From a virus, in the IMG/VR virus record IMGVR_UViG_3300043409_001128, positions 1 to 28,191 of that record: DNA of 28,191 nucleotides. One strand, written 5' to 3'. Positions 740 through 6,983 of the stretch are shown here, in pieces. The notes under the pieces were generated by a model. It was given only the letters and a program-made list of their open reading frames with translations. It was not told the DNA's origin and searched no databases. A program made the position numbers and the translations under genes. Every line of letters starts with the position of its first letter. The first letter of the stretch is position 1.

Positions 740-745
740 TATTAC

Positions 746-878
746 TGCTAACGTTAGACGGCTATACGATGGTTGGATTAAGTAAGCCGTAATTTTTCCG
801 ATTAACACAAATTATCCCGACACAAAAAATACTTTAAATTAAACAATTAACCCAACTATTGTATAACCGTTGTTAGCA
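746..878 (+). repeat. attC-like site 1
   Basis: Left half TGCTAAC, then arm GGCTATACGATGGTTGG; right arm CCCAACTATTGTATAACC, then GTTAGCA. The arms pair over about 25 bp with a few unpaired bases on the left side, as in attC hairpins; predicted crossover is G872^T873. It is nearly identical to site 8. It follows a phage gene rather than a cassette gene, so its own cassette body is missing. Confidence 0.75.
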
Positions 879-900
879 GTAGTTATAATACTAAATTAAA

Positions 901-1164
901 ATGGCATACACTCACGAACAATTAGAAAAATTAGGATTTAAAAAAGTTGAAGACAAAGAAACTGGAATTATTGATTTTGTAAATAAAGTTACAAGCAATG
1001 TTCATTTGGTTTTAAGCCCAATGTTAGAAGAATTATTTATTTGGGTTTTAGAAGATGGTGGCGATGAAGATTCAGATGGAACTAAAATAATTATTGATAC
1101 TTCTGATTTGGAAAAAGCAATAAAATTATGTGAAATGATTGTCGGTGTTGACGATGGTTTCTAA
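901..1164 (+). CDS. Cassette A: small acidic hypothetical protein, 87 aa
   Basis: An 87-residue acidic protein starting MAYTHEQLEKLGF, with GFKK.ED.ETGIIDF and a terminal Asp/Glu-rich region. It has no membrane segment or recognised domain; the alternating beta/alpha look recalls small immunity-like or anti-defence proteins, but that is only an impression. The ATG lies 28 nt after the cassette boundary, behind leader TTAGCAGTAGTTATAATAC, which the last cassette (4051 gene) shares almost exactly. The TAA lies 7 nt before the closing TGCTAAC. Cassette genes usually have no promoter of their own and depend on upstream transcription. Confidence 0.65.
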   Translation: MAYTHEQLEKLGFKKVEDKETGIIDFVNKVTSNVHLVLSPMLEELFIWVLEDGGDEDSDGTKIIIDTSDLEKAIKLCEMIVGVDDGF

Positions 1165-1171
1165 TAATTAC

Positions 1172-1305
1172 TGCTAACGTTTCGCAACTACACGTCTGTT
1201 GCGTAAAAGTACAAAACTATCTTTCAGTTTAACACGAAATTGAAAGGTACAAAACCAAAATTAAATTAATCACAATGTAGCAATAGCGTGTAGTTGCTGT
1301 TATAA
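1172..1305 (+). repeat. attC-like site 2
   Basis: Left arm GCAACTACACGTCTGTTGC pairs with right arm GCAATAGCGTGTAGTTGC; outer boxes are TGCTAAC and GTTATAA; predicted crossover is G1299^T1300. Stem pairing is nearly complete. The first 29 nt of the left arm recur exactly in site 7. Confidence 0.75.
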
Positions 1306-1315
1306 CTCGTTTTTT

Positions 1316-1555
1316 ATGAATATACCTGATTTTTCAAAACCATCAAAAGATTGTTTTTTAACAATTGATAAAAACGGAACAAAATTAAAAGTTGGAGATG
1401 TGCTATTTTCTAACTCAATACCATTAAGAGGAAGTAAACCGCAAAAAGAACAACTAAAACCTATTGAGAATTACGAAGGAAATCTAGTAATACCTCATTA
1501 CGGTAGCTTTTTAGTGAAACACTATGTTGAGTGTTACTGCGAGGTTTCTGTATAA
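1316..1555 (+). CDS. Cassette B: small hypothetical protein, 79 aa
   Basis: A 79-residue protein starting MNIPDFSKPSKDCFL. The segment IDKNGTKLKVGDVLFSN resembles a KOW/SH3-like beta-barrel opening ('G..L.VGD'), followed by a cluster of beta-strands ending CYCEVSV. Small 'KVGD' proteins are frequent in Bacteroidetes cassette-type loci, but no function is established to my knowledge. The ATG lies 16 nt after the cassette boundary at 1300, so the leader is very short. The TAA precedes the closing GGTTATAAC by a few bases. No signal peptide or transmembrane helix. Confidence 0.65.
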   Translation: MNIPDFSKPSKDCFLTIDKNGTKLKVGDVLFSNSIPLRGSKPQKEQLKPIENYEGNLVIPHYGSFLVKHYVECYCEVSV

Positions 1556-1559
1556 TTGG

Positions 1560-1639
1560 TTATAACGTATGGTGCTTTGCTTCAGTTGTGCCTAACCGCA
1601 AACTACTTTCGGCACAATTGAGCAAAACACTTGTTATGC
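1560..1639 (+). repeat. attC-like site 3 (short form)
   Basis: Only 80 bp. Left arm GGTGCTTTGCTTCAGTTGTGCC pairs with right arm GGCACAATTGAGCAAAACAC with single unpaired bases; outer boxes are TTATAAC and GTTATGC; predicted crossover is G1633^T1634. The loop between the arms is about 17 nt, much shorter than in the other sites. Confidence 0.8.
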
Positions 1640-1673
1640 GTTGTTGTTTTATAAATTAAAAAATCAAAGAAAT

Positions 1674-2051
1674 ATGATTATAGAAATTGGAAATAAACCA
1701 TTAAAAGAAATAGTATCGGAAGATTTACTTCAATTAGTAATTATAGAAGGATGTTGTCCTTTTATTGAATATGAAGGTAAAAAAATATGGAGCGAACCTG
1801 TAATTATAGAGTTTGACAATAAAATGTTTAGCGATACTCTTGTTTTAGATTATAATTCCATTAGACTTAAAGACAATGTTAAATCGGTAGATTTTACTTT
1901 TTATTTTGATTTTAAAAAATTTCAATACCATTATACACGTGATTATAAAAATAATCCAAATCAACAATCGAAAGGCAATAGATTGAAATTAGAAAGTCTT
2001 AAATTTTTAATATCGAAAGGTTATGACCTTCCGCTTTACAATAACGCATAA
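1674..2051 (+). CDS. Cassette C: hypothetical protein, 125 aa
   Basis: Start chosen at ATG 1674 (MIIEIGNKPLKEI), 40 nt inside the cassette and behind an A-rich leader; a TTG at 1641 would give 136 aa. The protein alternates short beta-strands with acidic turns (LVIIEGCCPFIEYEGKKIW, DFTFYFDFKKF) and ends DLPLYNNA. It looks like a compact cytoplasmic beta protein; no family is recognised. Its stop codon TAA (2049-2051) lies inside the closing half-site GCATAAC, so the recombination box itself ends the gene. Confidence 0.65.
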   Translation: MIIEIGNKPLKEIVSEDLLQLVIIEGCCPFIEYEGKKIWSEPVIIEFDNKMFSDTLVLDYNSIRLKDNVKSVDFTFYFDFKKFQYHYTRDYKNNPNQQSKGNRLKLESLKFLISKGYDLPLYNNA

Positions 2052-2235
2052 CGTTCTCCAGCTTGTTGCAGTTGCAAAGATTAATAACTAAACATTACAA
2101 AAATTATGGATAAAAAACTTGAAATATTAAATAAGTATATTGACTTCTCAAAAGATGGAGTTATAGAAAGAGAAGATGCTTTAAAAGCCATGCAAGAATA
2201 CGCCGACTTGCAATTGCAACAAACTGGTGTTAGTT
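2046..2235 (+). repeat. attC-like site 4 (long, carries an ORF start)
   Basis: Left arm CCAGCTTGTTGCAGTTGCAA pairs with right arm TTGCAATTGCAACAAACTGG; outer boxes are GCATAAC and GTTAGTT; predicted crossover is G2229^T2230. The 190-bp site contains the ATG at 2106 and about 40 codons that read through its right arm into the next cassette. Confidence 0.75.
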
Positions 2236-2453
2236 GCAGTTTTTATGAGATTAAAATTGATAAAGCAGATAGTGAAATTATAAATGAAAAACTTTTTGAA
2301 CCTAAAATACAAAAGTTTTTAGATAGTACTTCTGTTTGTTGTTATTTAAATTTTCCTAAAAATTGGGCAAATTGGGAGTTACCAAAAAGATTGCATAAAA
2401 AAGATTTGAAAATAATTTCATTTGATAAGACAAAAATACTTGTTGGATGGTAA
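2106..2453 (+). CDS. Cassette D: hypothetical protein whose N-terminus is encoded by the attC site, 115 aa
   Basis: Residues 1-41 (starting MDKKLEILNKYIDF, with EDALKAMQEYADLQLQQ) lie in attC-like site 4. The rest, from about VSCSFYEI to ILVGW, lies in the cassette that begins at 2230. The only ATG inside the cassette near the boundary is out of frame and closes after 11 codons, so translation must start in the attC site or at a non-ATG codon. The N-terminal helix 'EALKAMQEYA' resembles helices seen in many small Bacteroidetes phage proteins. The C-terminal part contains CCYLNFPKNWANWELPKR, of unknown family. The ORF could be a natural fusion created by recombination. Confidence 0.6.
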   Translation: MDKKLEILNKYIDFSKDGVIEREDALKAMQEYADLQLQQTGVSCSFYEIKIDKADSEIINEKLFEPKIQKFLDSTSVCCYLNFPKNWANWELPKRLHKKDLKIISFDKTKILVGW

Positions 2454-2459
2454 AATTGC

Positions 2460-2593
2460 CACTAACGTTCCTCGTGTTTATTTCAGTTGTGGGAAAACAC
2501 AAAATGAATTTTAATTAATTAGTAAAAATAACAAGTACAAAATGAACAATAAATTAAACCAAAAGCCACAATTGAATAAACACGATGTTAGCA
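2460..2593 (+). repeat. attC-like site 5 (carries an ORF start)
   Basis: Left arm CGTGTTTATTTCAGTTGTGG pairs with right arm CCACAATTGAATAAACACG with one unpaired T; outer boxes are CACTAAC and GTTAGCA; predicted crossover is G2587^T2588. The ATG at 2542 lies in its loop. Confidence 0.8.
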
Positions 2594-2790
2594 ACAGTAT
2601 TTTGACTTTTGATAATATCCATGAATTAGGATTTGAATACAATTATTTTGAAGGGTACTCATATTCACATCGACTCGGATATTCAATTAGTGTTTATGAT
2701 GTTAACACAATTTTATATAGGGGAGAAAAATACAGTATTAAAACTTTTTACGAATTTATAGATTTAGTAGATTCAACACAAAGTTATTAG
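2542..2790 (+). CDS. Cassette E: hypothetical protein starting inside attC, 82 aa
   Basis: The first 15 residues (MNNKLNQKPQLNKHD) come from attC-like site 5, and the cassette-encoded part starts at VSNSILTF. The body is aromatic-rich (FEYNYFEGYSYSHRLGYS) and ends DLVDSTQSY; no domain is recognised. No in-frame ATG occurs inside the cassette, so the start codon depends on the upstream attC. The TAG is followed 9 nt later by TGCTAAC of site 6. Confidence 0.6.
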   Translation: MNNKLNQKPQLNKHDVSNSILTFDNIHELGFEYNYFEGYSYSHRLGYSISVYDVNTILYRGEKYSIKTFYEFIDLVDSTQSY

Positions 2791-2798
2791 AATATTGT

Positions 2799-2930
2799 TG
2801 CTAACGGTTCTCGGCTTTGTTTAGTTGCCGAAAATATTAAACCAACTTTAAATTAAAAACTATTTATGAAAACACAAGAAAAACATAAAATTAAGCCTGA
2901 AACGGCAATTGAACAAAACCACTGTTATAC
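2799..2930 (+). repeat. attC-like site 6 (carries a leader ORF)
   Basis: Left arm CGGCTTTGTTTAGTTGCCG pairs with right arm CGGCAATTGAACAAAACCA; outer boxes are TGCTAAC and GTTATAC; predicted crossover is G2924^T2925. The short ORF 2866-2964 starts in its loop and crosses the crossover point. Confidence 0.75.
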
Positions 2931-2964
2931 GCAGTTTAAAAATACTTGTTATGTACAGAAGTAA
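2866..2964 (+). CDS. Leader ORF in attC, coupled to the methyltransferase, 32 aa
   Basis: The peptide starts MKTQEKHKIKPETAIEQN and continues HCYTQF; it is mostly encoded by attC-like site 6 and ends with TAA at 2962-2964. It overlaps the methyltransferase ATG (2951) by 14 nt in another frame. Ribosomes ending here could restart at 2951, so a role in translational coupling is possible. The peptide itself has no recognised domain; it may be a chance ORF produced by the repeat. Confidence 0.35.
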   Translation: MKTQEKHKIKPETAIEQNHCYTQFKNTCYVQK

Positions 2965-3598
2965 AATTGACTTATATAACGTAGATTGTTTGCCTTTTAT
3001 GAAGCAATGCAAGGATAAACAATTTGATTTAGCTATTGTTGACCCACCTTATGGGATAGGTATTGACGGACAAAAAGAAAGTATTTGTAAAAATCCTAAA
3101 CATAACAGAAAAGCACACGATTTTAAAGGATGGGATAATTCAATACCTACTGATGAATATTTTAGAGAACTTGAAAGAATTTCTAAAAATCAAATTGTTT
3201 GGGGTGCAAATTATTTTGTTGCCAATTTACAAAAAGGAACTAAAGGATGGATTGTATGGGATAAAGGACAACATGGCTTAACTATGAGTGATTGCGAACT
3301 TGCTTATAGTAGCTTTAATAAACCAACACGAATATTTACATTTAATCGCGGTTTAATAGCACAAAAAGGCGGAAGCATACACCCAACACAAAAACCTGTT
3401 GAACTTTATAGATATTTGCTAAATGAATATGCAGAAGAAGGCAACAAAATATTTGACAGCCATTTAGGAAGTGGAAGCATTGCGATTGCTTGTGATGATT
3501 TAGGATTTGATTTAACCGCTTGCGAAATTGATAAAGACTACTTTGAAAAGGCAAACAAAAGAATAGAAGCCTACAGAAGTCAAACAAGTATTTTTTAA
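2951..3598 (+). CDS. Cassette F: orphan DNA methyltransferase (N6-adenine or N4-cytosine type), 215 aa
   Basis: It transfers a methyl group from S-adenosylmethionine to an exocyclic amino group of DNA. Catalytic motif IV DPPYGIG is at residues 31-37. Then come HPTQKP (144-149, motif X region) and the SAM-binding motif I FDSHLGSGS (168-176), the order IV-X-I of beta-class enzymes. DPPY favours N6-adenine. At 215 aa it is short, leaving little target-recognition domain (about residues 40-135). The start at 2951 is chosen because the ORF further upstream relies on a TTG in the attC site. It is the only cassette gene here with a clear function, and no restriction endonuclease lies nearby. Protecting phage DNA from host restriction is the likely benefit (inference). 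Confidence 0.9.
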   Translation: MYRSKIDLYNVDCLPFMKQCKDKQFDLAIVDPPYGIGIDGQKESICKNPKHNRKAHDFKGWDNSIPTDEYFRELERISKNQIVWGANYFVANLQKGTKGWIVWDKGQHGLTMSDCELAYSSFNKPTRIFTFNRGLIAQKGGSIHPTQKPVELYRYLLNEYAEEGNKIFDSHLGSGSIAIACDDLGFDLTACEIDKDYFEKANKRIEAYRSQTSIF

Positions 3599-3602
3599 TT
3601 GC

Positions 3603-3738
3603 CTATAACGTTTCGCAACTACACGTCTGTTGCGTAGAATTAAGACCGATAATAACAAGTAAAAACTAATTTTAAAATTAAAAACTGATGTTTAAAAACA
3701 AAAAACAAAGTAGCAATAGCACAAAACCTGTGTTATGC
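3603..3738 (+). repeat. attC-like site 7 (mosaic, poorly paired centre)
   Basis: The left half (ACGTTTCGCAACTACACG, then TCTGTTGCGTA) is identical to site 2 over 29 nt, but the right half is GTAGCAATAGC then ACAAAACCTGTGTTATGC. The loop-proximal part (TCTGTTGC with GCAATAG) and the outer boxes still pair, while the 11-nt middle does not. Predicted crossover is G3732^T3733. It looks like a chimera of two attC types. Confidence 0.55.
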
Positions 3739-3888
3739 GAAGTGGCTTTACGAAAACGGCTTGAAAAAAATAGAGATGAAATTGAAAGTTGGCTAAATAA
3801 AGACTGCCCACTTGAATTGGTGTATATGCGAATTAGAATGCTAACGGCTCAAAATGAAAATATAATTTCTCAACTGAAAACGATTTAG
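3688..3888 (+). CDS. Cassette G: small helical hypothetical protein starting inside attC, 66 aa
   Basis: The first 15 residues (MFKNKKQSSNSTKPV) come from attC-like site 7, and the cassette begins at Leu16 (LCEVALRKRLEKNRDEI). The remaining 51 residues form a charged helical hairpin ending AQNENIISQLKTI. The ATG in the cassette's GTTATGCG start is out of frame and closes after 9 codons. So, as for the genes at 2106 and 2542, the start codon lies in the preceding attC. The segment 'VALRKRLEKNRDEIESWLNK' resembles small helical proteins of Bacteroidetes cassette regions; function unknown. Confidence 0.6.
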   Translation: MFKNKKQSSNSTKPVLCEVALRKRLEKNRDEIESWLNKDCPLELVYMRIRMLTAQNENIISQLKTI

Positions 3889-3895
3889 CCATTTT

Positions 3896-4029
3896 GCATA
3901 ACGTTTGACGGCTATACGATGGTTGGGATTAAGTAAGCCGTAATTTTTCCGATTAACACAAATTATCCCGACACAAAAAATACTTTAAATTAAACAATTA
4001 ACCCAACTATTGTATAACCGTTGTTAGCA
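3896..4029 (+). repeat. attC-like site 8, near-duplicate of site 1
   Basis: Same arms as site 1 (GGCTATACGATGGTTGG with CCCAACTATTGTATAACC); outer boxes are GCATAAC and GTTAGCA; predicted crossover is G4023^T4024. From 3901 to 4048 it matches 751-897 with about two differences (A/T in the first bases and one extra G). Confidence 0.75.
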
Positions 4030-4050
4030 GTAGTTATAATACTAAATTTT

Positions 4051-4245
4051 ATGTCGGAAATATTTACAGAATTAGCTAAAAAATTTGAAAGATGGATTTT
4101 ATTAGATAATAACGAAATAGTAAAAGATGAAAACAATAAAATCAAAGAATTTACAAGCATAGACGAAATGGAATATTACATAGACGTACATTATTATGAT
4201 GGTTGTTTTTTTAAATTCTTTAAATACTACGGAAGTTTCGATTAA
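4051..4245 (+). CDS. Cassette H: small hypothetical protein, 64 aa
   Basis: Start chosen at ATG 4051 (MSEIFTELAKKFERW), 27 nt after the cassette boundary. The leader is nearly identical to that of cassette A although the two proteins are unrelated. The protein is acidic with an aromatic C-terminus (YYIDVHYYDGCFFKFFKYYG). No domain is recognised. Its TAA (4243-4245) abuts the ATTACTGCTAAC repeat that ends the array. Confidence 0.6.
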   Translation: MSEIFTELAKKFERWILLDNNEIVKDENNKIKEFTSIDEMEYYIDVHYYDGCFFKFFKYYGSFD

Positions 4246-4256
4246 TTACTGCTAAC
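4245..4256 (+). repeat. Truncated attC half-site closing the array / 12-bp flanking direct repeat
   Basis: ATTACTGCTAAC here is identical to 741-752 at the other end of the array. It is the left box of a ninth attC for cassette H, but the following sequence (TATTCGCTAAAAACAAC) has no matching right arm before the next phage gene. The array therefore ends in half a site. Confidence 0.6.
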
Positions 4257-4304
4257 TATTCGCTAAAAACAACTAAAGTGGTAATTTATTAATAAAATAA
4301 GGTT

Positions 4305-4793: not shown

Positions 4794-5185
4794 CTTTTTA
4801 TAAAACTAATACCAACTAAAACTAAAAACATGATTATTAAAAGCCAAAATAAGCGATTTGCGACGCTATTTATTACTTCGGTGTAGTCTTTTACTTTTTC
4901 TGCCTCTTTTGCTTTTAAATCTACTTTTTTTACTATTGTGTCTTTTTTTACTATTGTTTCTTTAGAGTTGTTGTAAATAACTCTAGTATTGTAGATTGTG
5001 TCTTTACCAATTAAGATTGGTTTGTCTAAATTTACAGGTTCTAAAGTCCAACTATTAGAAAACTTAGTGGCGTTTAAAGTTGTGCCAGAACTACTATCTA
5101 TTTTTAAATCGGTTTCTTTTTTTGTCCTTGTAACGGTTGCACACCCTAAAAACAAAAAAGGGATTATTAATATTGCTTTTTTCAT
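4775..5185 (-). CDS. Probable unimolecular spanin (u-spanin) lipoprotein, 136 aa
   Basis: The N-terminus MKKAILIIPFLFLGC is a lipoprotein signal peptide with lipobox FLGC (Cys15) and Ala at +2, which fits sorting to the outer membrane. The C-terminus has a transmembrane helix (RLFWLLIIMFLVLVGISF, about 111-129) followed by KRK. The periplasmic middle is rich in Thr/Lys/Val strands. A protein with both an outer-membrane lipid anchor and a C-terminal inner-membrane helix matches the architecture of u-spanins such as T1 gp11, which fuse inner and outer membranes in the last step of lysis. The nearby amidase and holin-like genes fit. It overlaps the upstream gene by ATGA. The alternative is an unrelated membrane lipoprotein. 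Confidence 0.6.
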   Translation of the reverse strand: MKKAILIIPFLFLGCATVTRTKKETDLKIDSSSGTTLNATKFSNSWTLEPVNLDKPILIGKDTIYNTRVIYNNSKETIVKKDTIVKKVDLKAKEAEKVKDYTEVINSVANRLFWLLIIMFLVLVGISFIKRKTPII

Positions 5186-5298
5186 TTGTTAAATTTTAAT
5201 TTTAAAATATTTCTTAATACCTTGTTTACTGATTCTTTGCAAATTTCACGCTCGCAGTAGAACTTCTTTACTCTGTTAATTCTTTGTAATGCGCTCAT
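5182..5298 (-). CDS. Small basic hypothetical protein, 38 aa
   Basis: Start chosen at ATG 5298 (MSALQRINRVKKFYCEREI), 1 nt after the stop of the metallophosphoesterase; a longer version would overlap that gene. The 38 residues are strongly basic and helical, ending ILKLKFNK. The stop overlaps the spanin-like gene as ATGA (5182-5185), so the two are probably translationally coupled. Function unknown. Confidence 0.5.
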   Translation of the reverse strand: MSALQRINRVKKFYCEREICKESVNKVLRNILKLKFNK

Positions 5299-5299
5299 G

Positions 5300-6319
5300 T
5301 TAAACGATTTTATAATCAATAATACGAATGTTTTTAACCGTATAATCTCCGTTCTTATCTGTTTTAACGTGTGCAAATCCGTGATTGTATTTGTTAAATG
5401 GATTATATTCTGGCTCTAATCCAGACAAACAGCCCGTACTCCAACAAGTTGTAATTTTACCACCTAAACTTTTCTCTGTGTGTTCACTTGTAGTATGGTG
5501 GTGTCCAATTATACAACTTTCTTTAGCTTTTAAAAACAAACCTCTAGCAGGATTAACAGGTGGGGCAAATCCAGCAAACCATTCGTGCCCATGAAGAACT
5601 GGTAATTTACCTAAATACCCAATTTGCCTATCTTTAATTAAATTAACTCCAAACTCTCTAAATCTTAAAATTTGCTCAAGTTTGAAATCATCAATCCCCA
5701 ACAGTTCGGGTGCTTTTAGTCTCAAATAATCTTCCCAACGTTTCTCATGGTTTCCAATTTTAAAATAAATAGGACAATTAAAAGTATCTTTTAGCGTTTT
5801 TAAAAACTGTCTAGTAAGTTCTAATTCTCCAGCAAGATCACGCAATCTTCTATCTTTAATAAATCTACTTCCTTGATACATATCAATTGTATCGCCATTT
5901 AAATAAATTGCATTTACTCCATTTTCTAAACCGTAATTTAAGGCTATTTCTAACGCTTTATTGTCTTGATAAGGTATGTGAATATCTGACAATACTAATA
6001 CATTATTTTGTCCTTTAGGCACATTAAATACTTCGCTTTTTTCGTAGTCGCTTTGCGGTAATTCAAATTGTTTTTTCATAAAATTTTTTTTAGTTTGTTC
6101 GGTTCTTTTAAATTCTGTTATGTCTGTTGTTTTTGGAGTTTTGTTTATAAGTTCATTTCTGTAAAATCTTACCGACCCCCTTACGCTTTCTAAGTTTGTG
6201 AAGTCTAAAGGATTTTCTTTTAGTATTATTCTAGAAATAGCCATTGTAGAAGCGTTTGGATATTTCTTTAAAGCATTTAATACTATTTTACCTTTATAGG
6301 TTATTTTTTCGTTTTTCAT
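5300..6319 (-). CDS. Calcineurin-like metallophosphoesterase, 339 aa
   Basis: A hydrolase of phosphate esters with a two-metal centre. The motifs are in the canonical order: SDIH (111-114), NGDTID (141-146), GNHEKR (189-194), HGHE (243-246) and GHHH (272-275). Together these give the Asp, His and Asn ligands of this superfamily. Residues 1-60 form a separate helical domain that looks like a winged helix (KYPNASTMAISRIILKE...), suggesting nucleic-acid binding. Phage members may be nucleases or phosphatases; the substrate cannot be read from sequence. The -7-like box TATATTTG 22 nt upstream suggests its own host-type promoter. It sits between the amidase/tRNA-like region and the spanin-like gene. 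Confidence 0.85.
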   Translation of the reverse strand: MKNEKITYKGKIVLNALKKYPNASTMAISRIILKENPLDFTNLESVRGSVRFYRNELINKTPKTTDITEFKRTEQTKKNFMKKQFELPQSDYEKSEVFNVPKGQNNVLVLSDIHIPYQDNKALEIALNYGLENGVNAIYLNGDTIDMYQGSRFIKDRRLRDLAGELELTRQFLKTLKDTFNCPIYFKIGNHEKRWEDYLRLKAPELLGIDDFKLEQILRFREFGVNLIKDRQIGYLGKLPVLHGHEWFAGFAPPVNPARGLFLKAKESCIIGHHHTTSEHTEKSLGGKITTCWSTGCLSGLEPEYNPFNKYNHGFAHVKTDKNGDYTVKNIRIIDYKIV

Positions 6320-6572: not shown

Positions 6573-6983
6573 CTAAATATTGCTATATATTTTTTTTGCG
6601 TCAAATGATGGACACGCTTTTTTAACGTTAGGGAAATCTTTATGACCTTGTATAATTGCTTTTGGGTAACGTTTACGCAACTCTTTCAATAGTTTTAAGA
6701 TACTTTCTTTTTGTTGTGGTGTTCTAGTGTCTTTTGGTTTATTACTTGCATCTACACCGCCCTTATAACTTATATGAACACTAACAGAATTAAACCCAAC
6801 TACTCCGTTTGTAACTTCACTTTCTTGCGCTAATTGTTCAATTGTTCCGTCTGCACTAATTAGATAATGGTAACCGACACTTTTCCAACCTAAGTTATTT
6901 TTCCAATAATCTTTAATTGCTTTTGTAGTTTGTGTTGCTGGTCCAGCTGTGCAATGTATTGCGATATATTTTACATCTCTCAT
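6573..6983 (-). CDS. N-acetylmuramoyl-L-alanine amidase (endolysin, T7 lysozyme type), 136 aa
   Basis: It cleaves the bond between N-acetylmuramic acid and L-alanine in peptidoglycan. Visible features of the Amidase_2 family are AIHCTAG with zinc ligand His10, WKSVGYHYLISADG (catalytic Tyr region), SVHISYKGG, QGHKDF with His114, and KKACPSFDA with catalytic Lys and zinc ligand Cys124. The length equals the single-domain T7 lysozyme type. There is no signal peptide, so release through a holin is expected. Upstream are two membrane-anchored proteins that could be holins, and downstream a probable spanin, which together form a lysis module. Confidence 0.92.
   Translation of the reverse strand: MRDVKYIAIHCTAGPATQTTKAIKDYWKNNLGWKSVGYHYLISADGTIEQLAQESEVTNGVVGFNSVSVHISYKGGVDASNKPKDTRTPQQKESILKLLKELRKRYPKAIIQGHKDFPNVKKACPSFDAKKIYSNI

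Follow-up and report, generated by a model that had tools for sequence, protein, structure and literature searches.

The window analysed here is the whole of an IMG/VR virus record (IMGVR_UViG_3300043409_001128), a linear contig of 28,191 nucleotides (nt) that may be partial. It carries terminase, portal, tape measure and amidase genes and belongs to a siphophage. Between positions 741 and 4256 lie eight one-gene units, each with a hairpin site at its head that resembles the attC recombination sites of integron cassettes. Site 8 is followed by one last unit ending in TGCTAAC at 4256, with no hairpin beyond.

The alternation of eight + strand open reading frames (ORFs) with attC-like repeats, first proposed in a sequence-only reading of this DNA, is upheld by two methods. 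Covariance model R1, built from 40 related phage and chromosomal sites, including three of the window, gives eight matches and no more in the 28 kb, all on the + strand with E ≤ 6e-10; the other five window sites had no part in its training. A sequence scanner gives the well-phased window sites scores of 19.9-22.1, whereas none of 60 dinucleotide shuffles exceeds 16.2; two mis-phased hits score lower (14-15). Rfam has no match at gathering thresholds. Read on the ORF strand, a site consists of a left box (..YAAC), a G, usually 5 nt, the left arm, the loop, the right arm, usually 1 nt, and a right box (GTTR...). The features are as follows, with ORF lengths in amino acids (aa), R1 scores marked as trained or untrained, and z-scores for folds as single-stranded DNA (ssDNA).

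746-878 (+): attC-like site 1, left box TGCTAAC 746-752, right box GTTAGCA 872-878; R1 match 742-882, 104.6 bits (training set); ssDNA fold z -2.5
753-1178 (+): unit 1, hairpin body, ORF 901-1164 (87 aa, unknown), end box TGCTAAC
1172-1305 (+): attC-like site 2; R1 match 1168-1309, 102.3 bits (training set)
1179-1566 (+): unit 2, body, ORF 1316-1555 (79 aa, unknown), end box TTATAAC
1560-1639 (+): attC-like site 3, short loop; R1 match 1556-1643, 53.3 bits (untrained); ssDNA fold z -3.5
1567-2052 (+): unit 3, body, ORF 1674-2051 (125 aa, unknown), end box GCATAAC; end complementarity run 10
2046-2235 (+): attC-like site 4, long loop, containing the start of ORF 2106-2453; R1 match 2042-2239, 68.3 bits (untrained)
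2053-2466 (+): unit 4, body, ORF 2106-2453, end box CACTAAC
2460-2593 (+): attC-like site 5; R1 match 2456-2597, 89.8 bits (training set); ssDNA fold z -3.6
2467-2805 (+): unit 5, body, ORF 2542-2790 (82 aa; start codon within site), end box TGCTAAC
2799-2930 (+): attC-like site 6; R1 match 2795-2934, 78.9 bits (untrained)
2806-3609 (+): unit 6, body, DNA methyltransferase ORF 2954-3598, end box CTATAAC
3603-3738 (+): attC-like site 7; R1 match 3599-3742, 67.2 bits (untrained); lowest-energy fold leaves two arms unpaired
3610-3902 (+): unit 7, body, ORF 3688-3888 (66 aa; start codon within site), end box GCATAAC
3896-4029 (+): attC-like site 8; R1 match 3892-4033, 94.4 bits (untrained)
3903-4256 (+): unit 8, body, ORF 4051-4245 (64 aa), end box TGCTAAC; end complementarity run 10
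4250-4300 (+): terminal junction AAC|TATTCGCTAAAAAC, attI-like array end (here and below the bar marks the junction)

Seven of the eight cassette ORFs have no known family in PHROGs or Pfam, the methyltransferase being the sole exception (Pfam N6_N4_Mtase, 1.5e-16; PHROG 67, 1.8e-42). The upstream flanking ORF (407-739) likewise has no family match in either. The description of the array as integrase-less agrees with what we find, as no recombinase was recognised among the window ORFs of this possibly partial 28-kb contig. With eight R1 sites, the block may count as a cluster of attC sites lacking integron-integrases (CALIN), defined by at least two attC sites with no integrase nearby.

Hairpins, unit ends and the crossover position

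The attC-like character of the sites, with R and L boxes and a hairpin predicted to form in a single strand, is supported by the scanner, R1, covariation and predicted folds. Across the 40 phage and chromosomal sites, 92.4% of stem cells are paired compared with 67.3% after shuffling, and stem covariation is 0.627 versus 0.168 in shuffled and at most 0.131 in slid controls. Changes on both sides occur in 21 of the 24 stem pairs, the pattern of a stem maintained by compensatory change. Folding had been suggested as a check on the window sites, and among seven folded as ssDNA it gave the expected stem in six (z -1.6 to -3.6). The exception is site 7, whose arms do not pair, apparently because the site is chimeric, with a left arm of the site-2 body type and a right arm of another.

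It had also been claimed that unit ends are mutually complementary, as cassette insertion would produce, and this proved correct. When the start of each window unit (from GTT) is compared with the end of the same unit (..AAC), perfect complementary runs of 10, 8, 10, 6, 10, 6, 7 and 10 nt are found; in all, 97 of 112 positions are complementary versus 68.8 for permuted partners (p=5e-5). The pair originally quoted, TTATGCGTTGTTG and CAATAACGCATAAC, lies at 1634 and 2039-2052. In 85 distinct phage and host units, the start of a unit is complementary to its own end over a median run of 9 nt, compared with 4 nt for the neighbouring box in the same site. Such complementarity is expected of circular cassettes and is silent on which of the two boxes is cut.

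The cut box is indicated by sister phages. Close relatives are the Baltic Flavobacterium phages of Lillamyvirus, Muminvirus and Hattifnattvirus, described as virulent (PMC7077304); the three Lillamyvirus loci read first hold 10-11 sites each by the scanner. The hemulen, sniff and morran phages show single-unit differences, mumin6-1 and mumin6-3 differ by one unit, and between lillamy9-1 and lillamy9-7 a 444-bp unit is relocated from mid-array to the array end, where it lies between TTATAAC and TACAATATTACATG. Each of these junctions falls within ATAAC|G of the left box, the unit comprising a body, the downstream ORF and the end box. Comparison thus shows single units gained, lost and moved among sister phages, with the crossover inside left-box AAC|G (G^TT on the other strand), and identifies the apparent mobile unit as the hairpin site body with its downstream ORF and end box.

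The same preference is seen more broadly. Of 108 distinct breakpoints in 15 phages, 80 lie within 12 nt of a left or terminal box, where 3.9% would be expected, compared with two at a right box. Of the 26 left over, many fall at TAACG boxes overlooked by the scanner. The nominal p of 1e-87 is overstated, as the breakpoints share ancestry and are not independent events. In 111 of 113 distinct sites the base after AAC is G, as reported by Bouvier et al. for the cut box of canonical attC (PMC2727003). The crossover therefore appears to sit at G^TT in the cut-side (AACG) box, at AAC|G in phages and at AAC|T in the host attI-like site described below. The unit boundaries drawn in the sequence-only reading, at G^TT of the opposite box, are not supported, since that box holds two of the breakpoints and the other 80.

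These breakpoints bear on two other explanations. In one, the block is an ordinary CALIN, that is, classical cassettes (each an ORF with its attC behind it and the G^TT cut after that attC) acquired from a host IntI integron, as site anatomy, end complementarity and earlier reports from phages (PMC9892861) would suggest. The breakpoints, at the left box instead of the right, already largely refute it; moreover, the hairpin moves together with the downstream ORF, the ORFs are inverted relative to the cut side, and none of 15 Flavobacterium-group genomes has an IntI above cut-off. We regard it as quite improbable. In the other, the sites are conserved linker hairpins swapped by homologous or annealing recombination of the phages, without a site-specific recombinase. 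Sister phages do have long identical tracts in common, TAACG microhomology is present at every box, and site 7 resembles a chimera of two bodies. Even so, this explanation is unlikely, as the breakpoints favour one box although both are similarly conserved, the two ends of a unit are complementary to each other and not to the neighbouring site, one unit reached a terminal site having just TTATAAC in common with the donor site, and the same sites adjoin a recombinase in chromosomes.

Chromosomal arrays, polarity and the recombinase

Sites of the same type, found first by DNA pattern, occur in Flavobacterium chromosomes. R1 detects them in 52 of 60 Flavobacterium genomes, with up to 54 per genome, and in a few other Bacteroidota; it finds none in three gammaproteobacteria with true IntI or in one deltaproteobacterial metagenome-assembled genome. 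The proposal that the window carries host-type cassettes is borne out by this shared site family and by the chromosomal arrays, which often abut a tyrosine recombinase of ~345 aa (sometimes ~580 aa). About 100 bp past the recombinase stop codon, most loci read contain a conserved AAC|T[TA]GTATATA-hairpin-CACCCA, in which AAC is the end box of the last cassette. Hosts thus have, beside the recombinase, a conserved sequence that resembles attI.

To compare orientation, the AACG strand was taken as reference and the longest ORF of each unit was scored. The ORF is in sense in 66 of 67 viral units (23/23 Baltic, 3/3 scanner-called window and 40/41 other viral units), whereas it is antisense, the canonical direction, in 62 of 66 bacterial units. 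By this census, then, the polarity of bacterial arrays is that of canonical integrons: recombinase, attI-like site and cassettes share one direction, and the ORF is upstream of its attC; viral cassettes, in which just 1 of 67 ORFs is so placed, are their mirror images. The census ruled out that host cassette ORFs face the recombinase as those of the phages do.

Polarity also bears on whether the sites serve phage genes as regulatory hairpins of the 5′ leader or as terminators and are shuffled incidentally. Phage sites do lie 5′ of each ORF and often contain its start codon, as in window units 4, 5 and 7 (2106, 2542 and 3688). The same sites are, however, 3′ of the ORF in bacterial arrays, the complementarity spans the two ends of a gene, and hosts have the attI-like junction, all of which makes this explanation very hard to credit.

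The array recombinase keeps the catalytic residues, but the ~32-residue IntI insert is absent from 13 of 13 recombinases aligned with four true IntI, so that it does not qualify as an IntI, for which this additional domain is specific. None of 15 Flavobacterium-group genomes exceeds the TIGR02249 cut-off, the array recombinases scoring 178-222 bits versus 265. Three of five tested are at or near the cut-off of NF040815 ('site-specific tyrosine recombinase/integron integrase', XerA-type; 228.5, 220.9 and 218.6 versus 220). NF040815 by itself implies no cassette system, whereas the Flavobacterium gene lies directly beside an array and an attI-like site. A tree of 31 proteins places the array recombinase with IntI and other Bacteroidota recombinases, separate from Xer (100/100), IntI being a clade by itself; the sample is small, long branches come together and the array-type recombinase is not monophyletic. 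The predicted structure (predicted template modelling score, pTM, 0.56) matches both XerA and IntI and is not decisive. Residues 1-60 form an extra N-terminal domain, predicted to be alpha/beta and without a Pfam match, and the N-terminal part of the 580-aa variant is much longer. The classical integron array of the sequence-only reading is therefore not supported, given inverted ORFs and an array-adjacent host recombinase lacking the IntI additional domain.

We find this recombinase subfamily in 32 of 61 Flavobacterium genomes, and genomes that have it carry a median of 16 sites versus 4 in those without (p=0.0015). Its best matches in phages are 41% identical. Recombinases about 50% identical occur on Klebsiella, Aeromonas and Acinetobacter plasmids (H106-H125), one of them annotated TnpF. 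In Draconibacterium (Bacteroidales; G025:C65), a weak site of the same type at 3933-4074 (+) lies beside the same kind of recombinase at 4923-5732 (-), and the system may therefore extend beyond Flavobacteriia.

A proposed exchange route and its relation to known systems

We consider it likely that the siphophage carries at 741-4256 an array of cassettes from an integron-like system of Flavobacterium, the units being moved probably by a host recombinase within a separate, mirror-oriented phage pool. In the route we propose, the hairpin would fold as ssDNA and the host recombinase would cut the AAC box of the folded site. The unit would exit as a circle, its two end boxes pairing, and would re-enter at another left box or at the terminal attI-like site. 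Mirror polarity could arise because the viral operon is presumably transcribed toward the attI-like end, where only cassettes with inverted ORFs would be expressed; in viruses the site would thereby become the 5′ leader of the ORF. Cargo such as the methyltransferase probably has an anti-restriction or other accessory function.

On balance we also favour a broader reading, in which Flavobacterium hosts a widespread integron lineage run by a recombinase without the IntI domain, and viruses keep a separate mirror-oriented pool suited to their own transcription, with one-cassette exchange in virulent phages.

Several points weigh against these readings. A few breakpoints do fall at the right box, in mumin6-3 (about 6646-6651) and filifjonk (about 4153-4160), and homologous recombination carries existing arrangements from phage to phage, which could make the breakpoint counts too high. 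The outcome of the polarity census depends on the sequence scanner, and most viral and bacterial loci were drawn with one narrow sequence pattern. Some array-bearing genomes are without the queried recombinase subfamily (up to 37 sites, G080), and the cut-side arm has a bulged base, unlike canonical attC. Finally, the support comes from sequence comparison. The right-box breakpoints concern one short-loop site type, which may recombine differently.

The sites share with canonical attC and IntI systems (PMC2727003, PMC9668308) their R and L boxes, AACG on the cut side, a covarying hairpin and complementary cassette ends. They differ in a conserved C.A mismatch, the 5/1-nt central spacer and the bulge of the cut-side arm, and in the inverted ORFs of phages. 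The Flavobacterium loci resemble the sedentary chromosomal integrons of the Treponema type (PMC3607928), where the recombinase is transcribed toward attI with the cassettes downstream in the same direction. The Treponema integrase is, however, an IntI, whereas the Flavobacterium recombinase is without the additional domain and has an extra N-terminal one. The additional domain of IntI is described as necessary for integron recombination (PMC9668308), and complete Bacteroidetes integrons, such as that of Salinibacter, were rare finds with IntegronFinder 2.0 (PMC9024848).

Cassette arrays in phages are not as little reported as the sequence-only reading supposed. Qi et al. (2023) reported 17 phage CALINs, some of them with DNA methyltransferases; a Polaribacter phage with methyltransferases is among the carriers, and IntI1 recombined five of the six phage sites that they tested (PMC9892861). 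Those are likewise integrase-less attC clusters, and Polaribacter also belongs to Flavobacteriaceae, but Flavobacterium is absent from the main text, and left-box exchange, inverted ORFs and a host system are not described there. R1 finds no match in the P12002L genome. In the literature searched, which left most subscription journals and preprints outside, we came across no description of this Flavobacterium system, nor of viral cassettes in mirror orientation, and novelty is provisional.

If these readings are correct, integron-style gene capture extends beyond enzymes with the IntI additional domain, which has been treated as defining and necessary, and virulent phages would own a site-specific route for swapping accessory genes such as methyltransferases. 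Mirror polarity makes it testable whether viruses and bacteria draw on one cassette exchange pool or are separated by transcription direction, and isolated phage-host pairs (LMO6, LMO9 and the Baltic phages) exist for such experiments.

Individual units and array ends

The earlier suggestion that a window cassette might be found elsewhere holds for unit 1, which recurs in another virus (L198) at 98.2% identity over 444 nt, flanked there by other neighbours on either side. Its ORF (901-1164) is an ordinary phage gene without sites in two further viruses, L199 (3001-3261, 90% aa identity) and L201 (3001-3255, 72%), which suggests that phage genes can become cassettes. In L200 (about 2943-3280), unit 1 has the left half of its hairpin body truncated, as if the array started there.

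The body of site 2 is found at 88% identity in sniff phage L002, ahead of another gene, and at 83-88% in Flavobacterium chromosomes L178 and L179; that of site 5 recurs at 82-83% in hemulen phage L001 and Flavobacterium genome L180. No relatives of ORF 1674-2051 in unit 3 were found in the viral contigs searched. Within the window, a 150-nt block at 3899-4048 is 98.7% identical to 749-897 and starts exactly at the left-box TAAC in sites 1 and 8.

The array end AAC|TATTCG.. of the window also occurs in L005 and L027, and with one change (TATTGG..) in L023, whereas Baltic phage arrays end in AAC|TACAATATTACATG. These viral attI-like flanks differ from the host attI-like site. Among the array ends of L008, L025, L021, L005, L023 and L027 there are several attI-like flanks, some of them recurring (AAC|TATTCG.. 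and AAC|TACAA(C/T)ATTACAT..).

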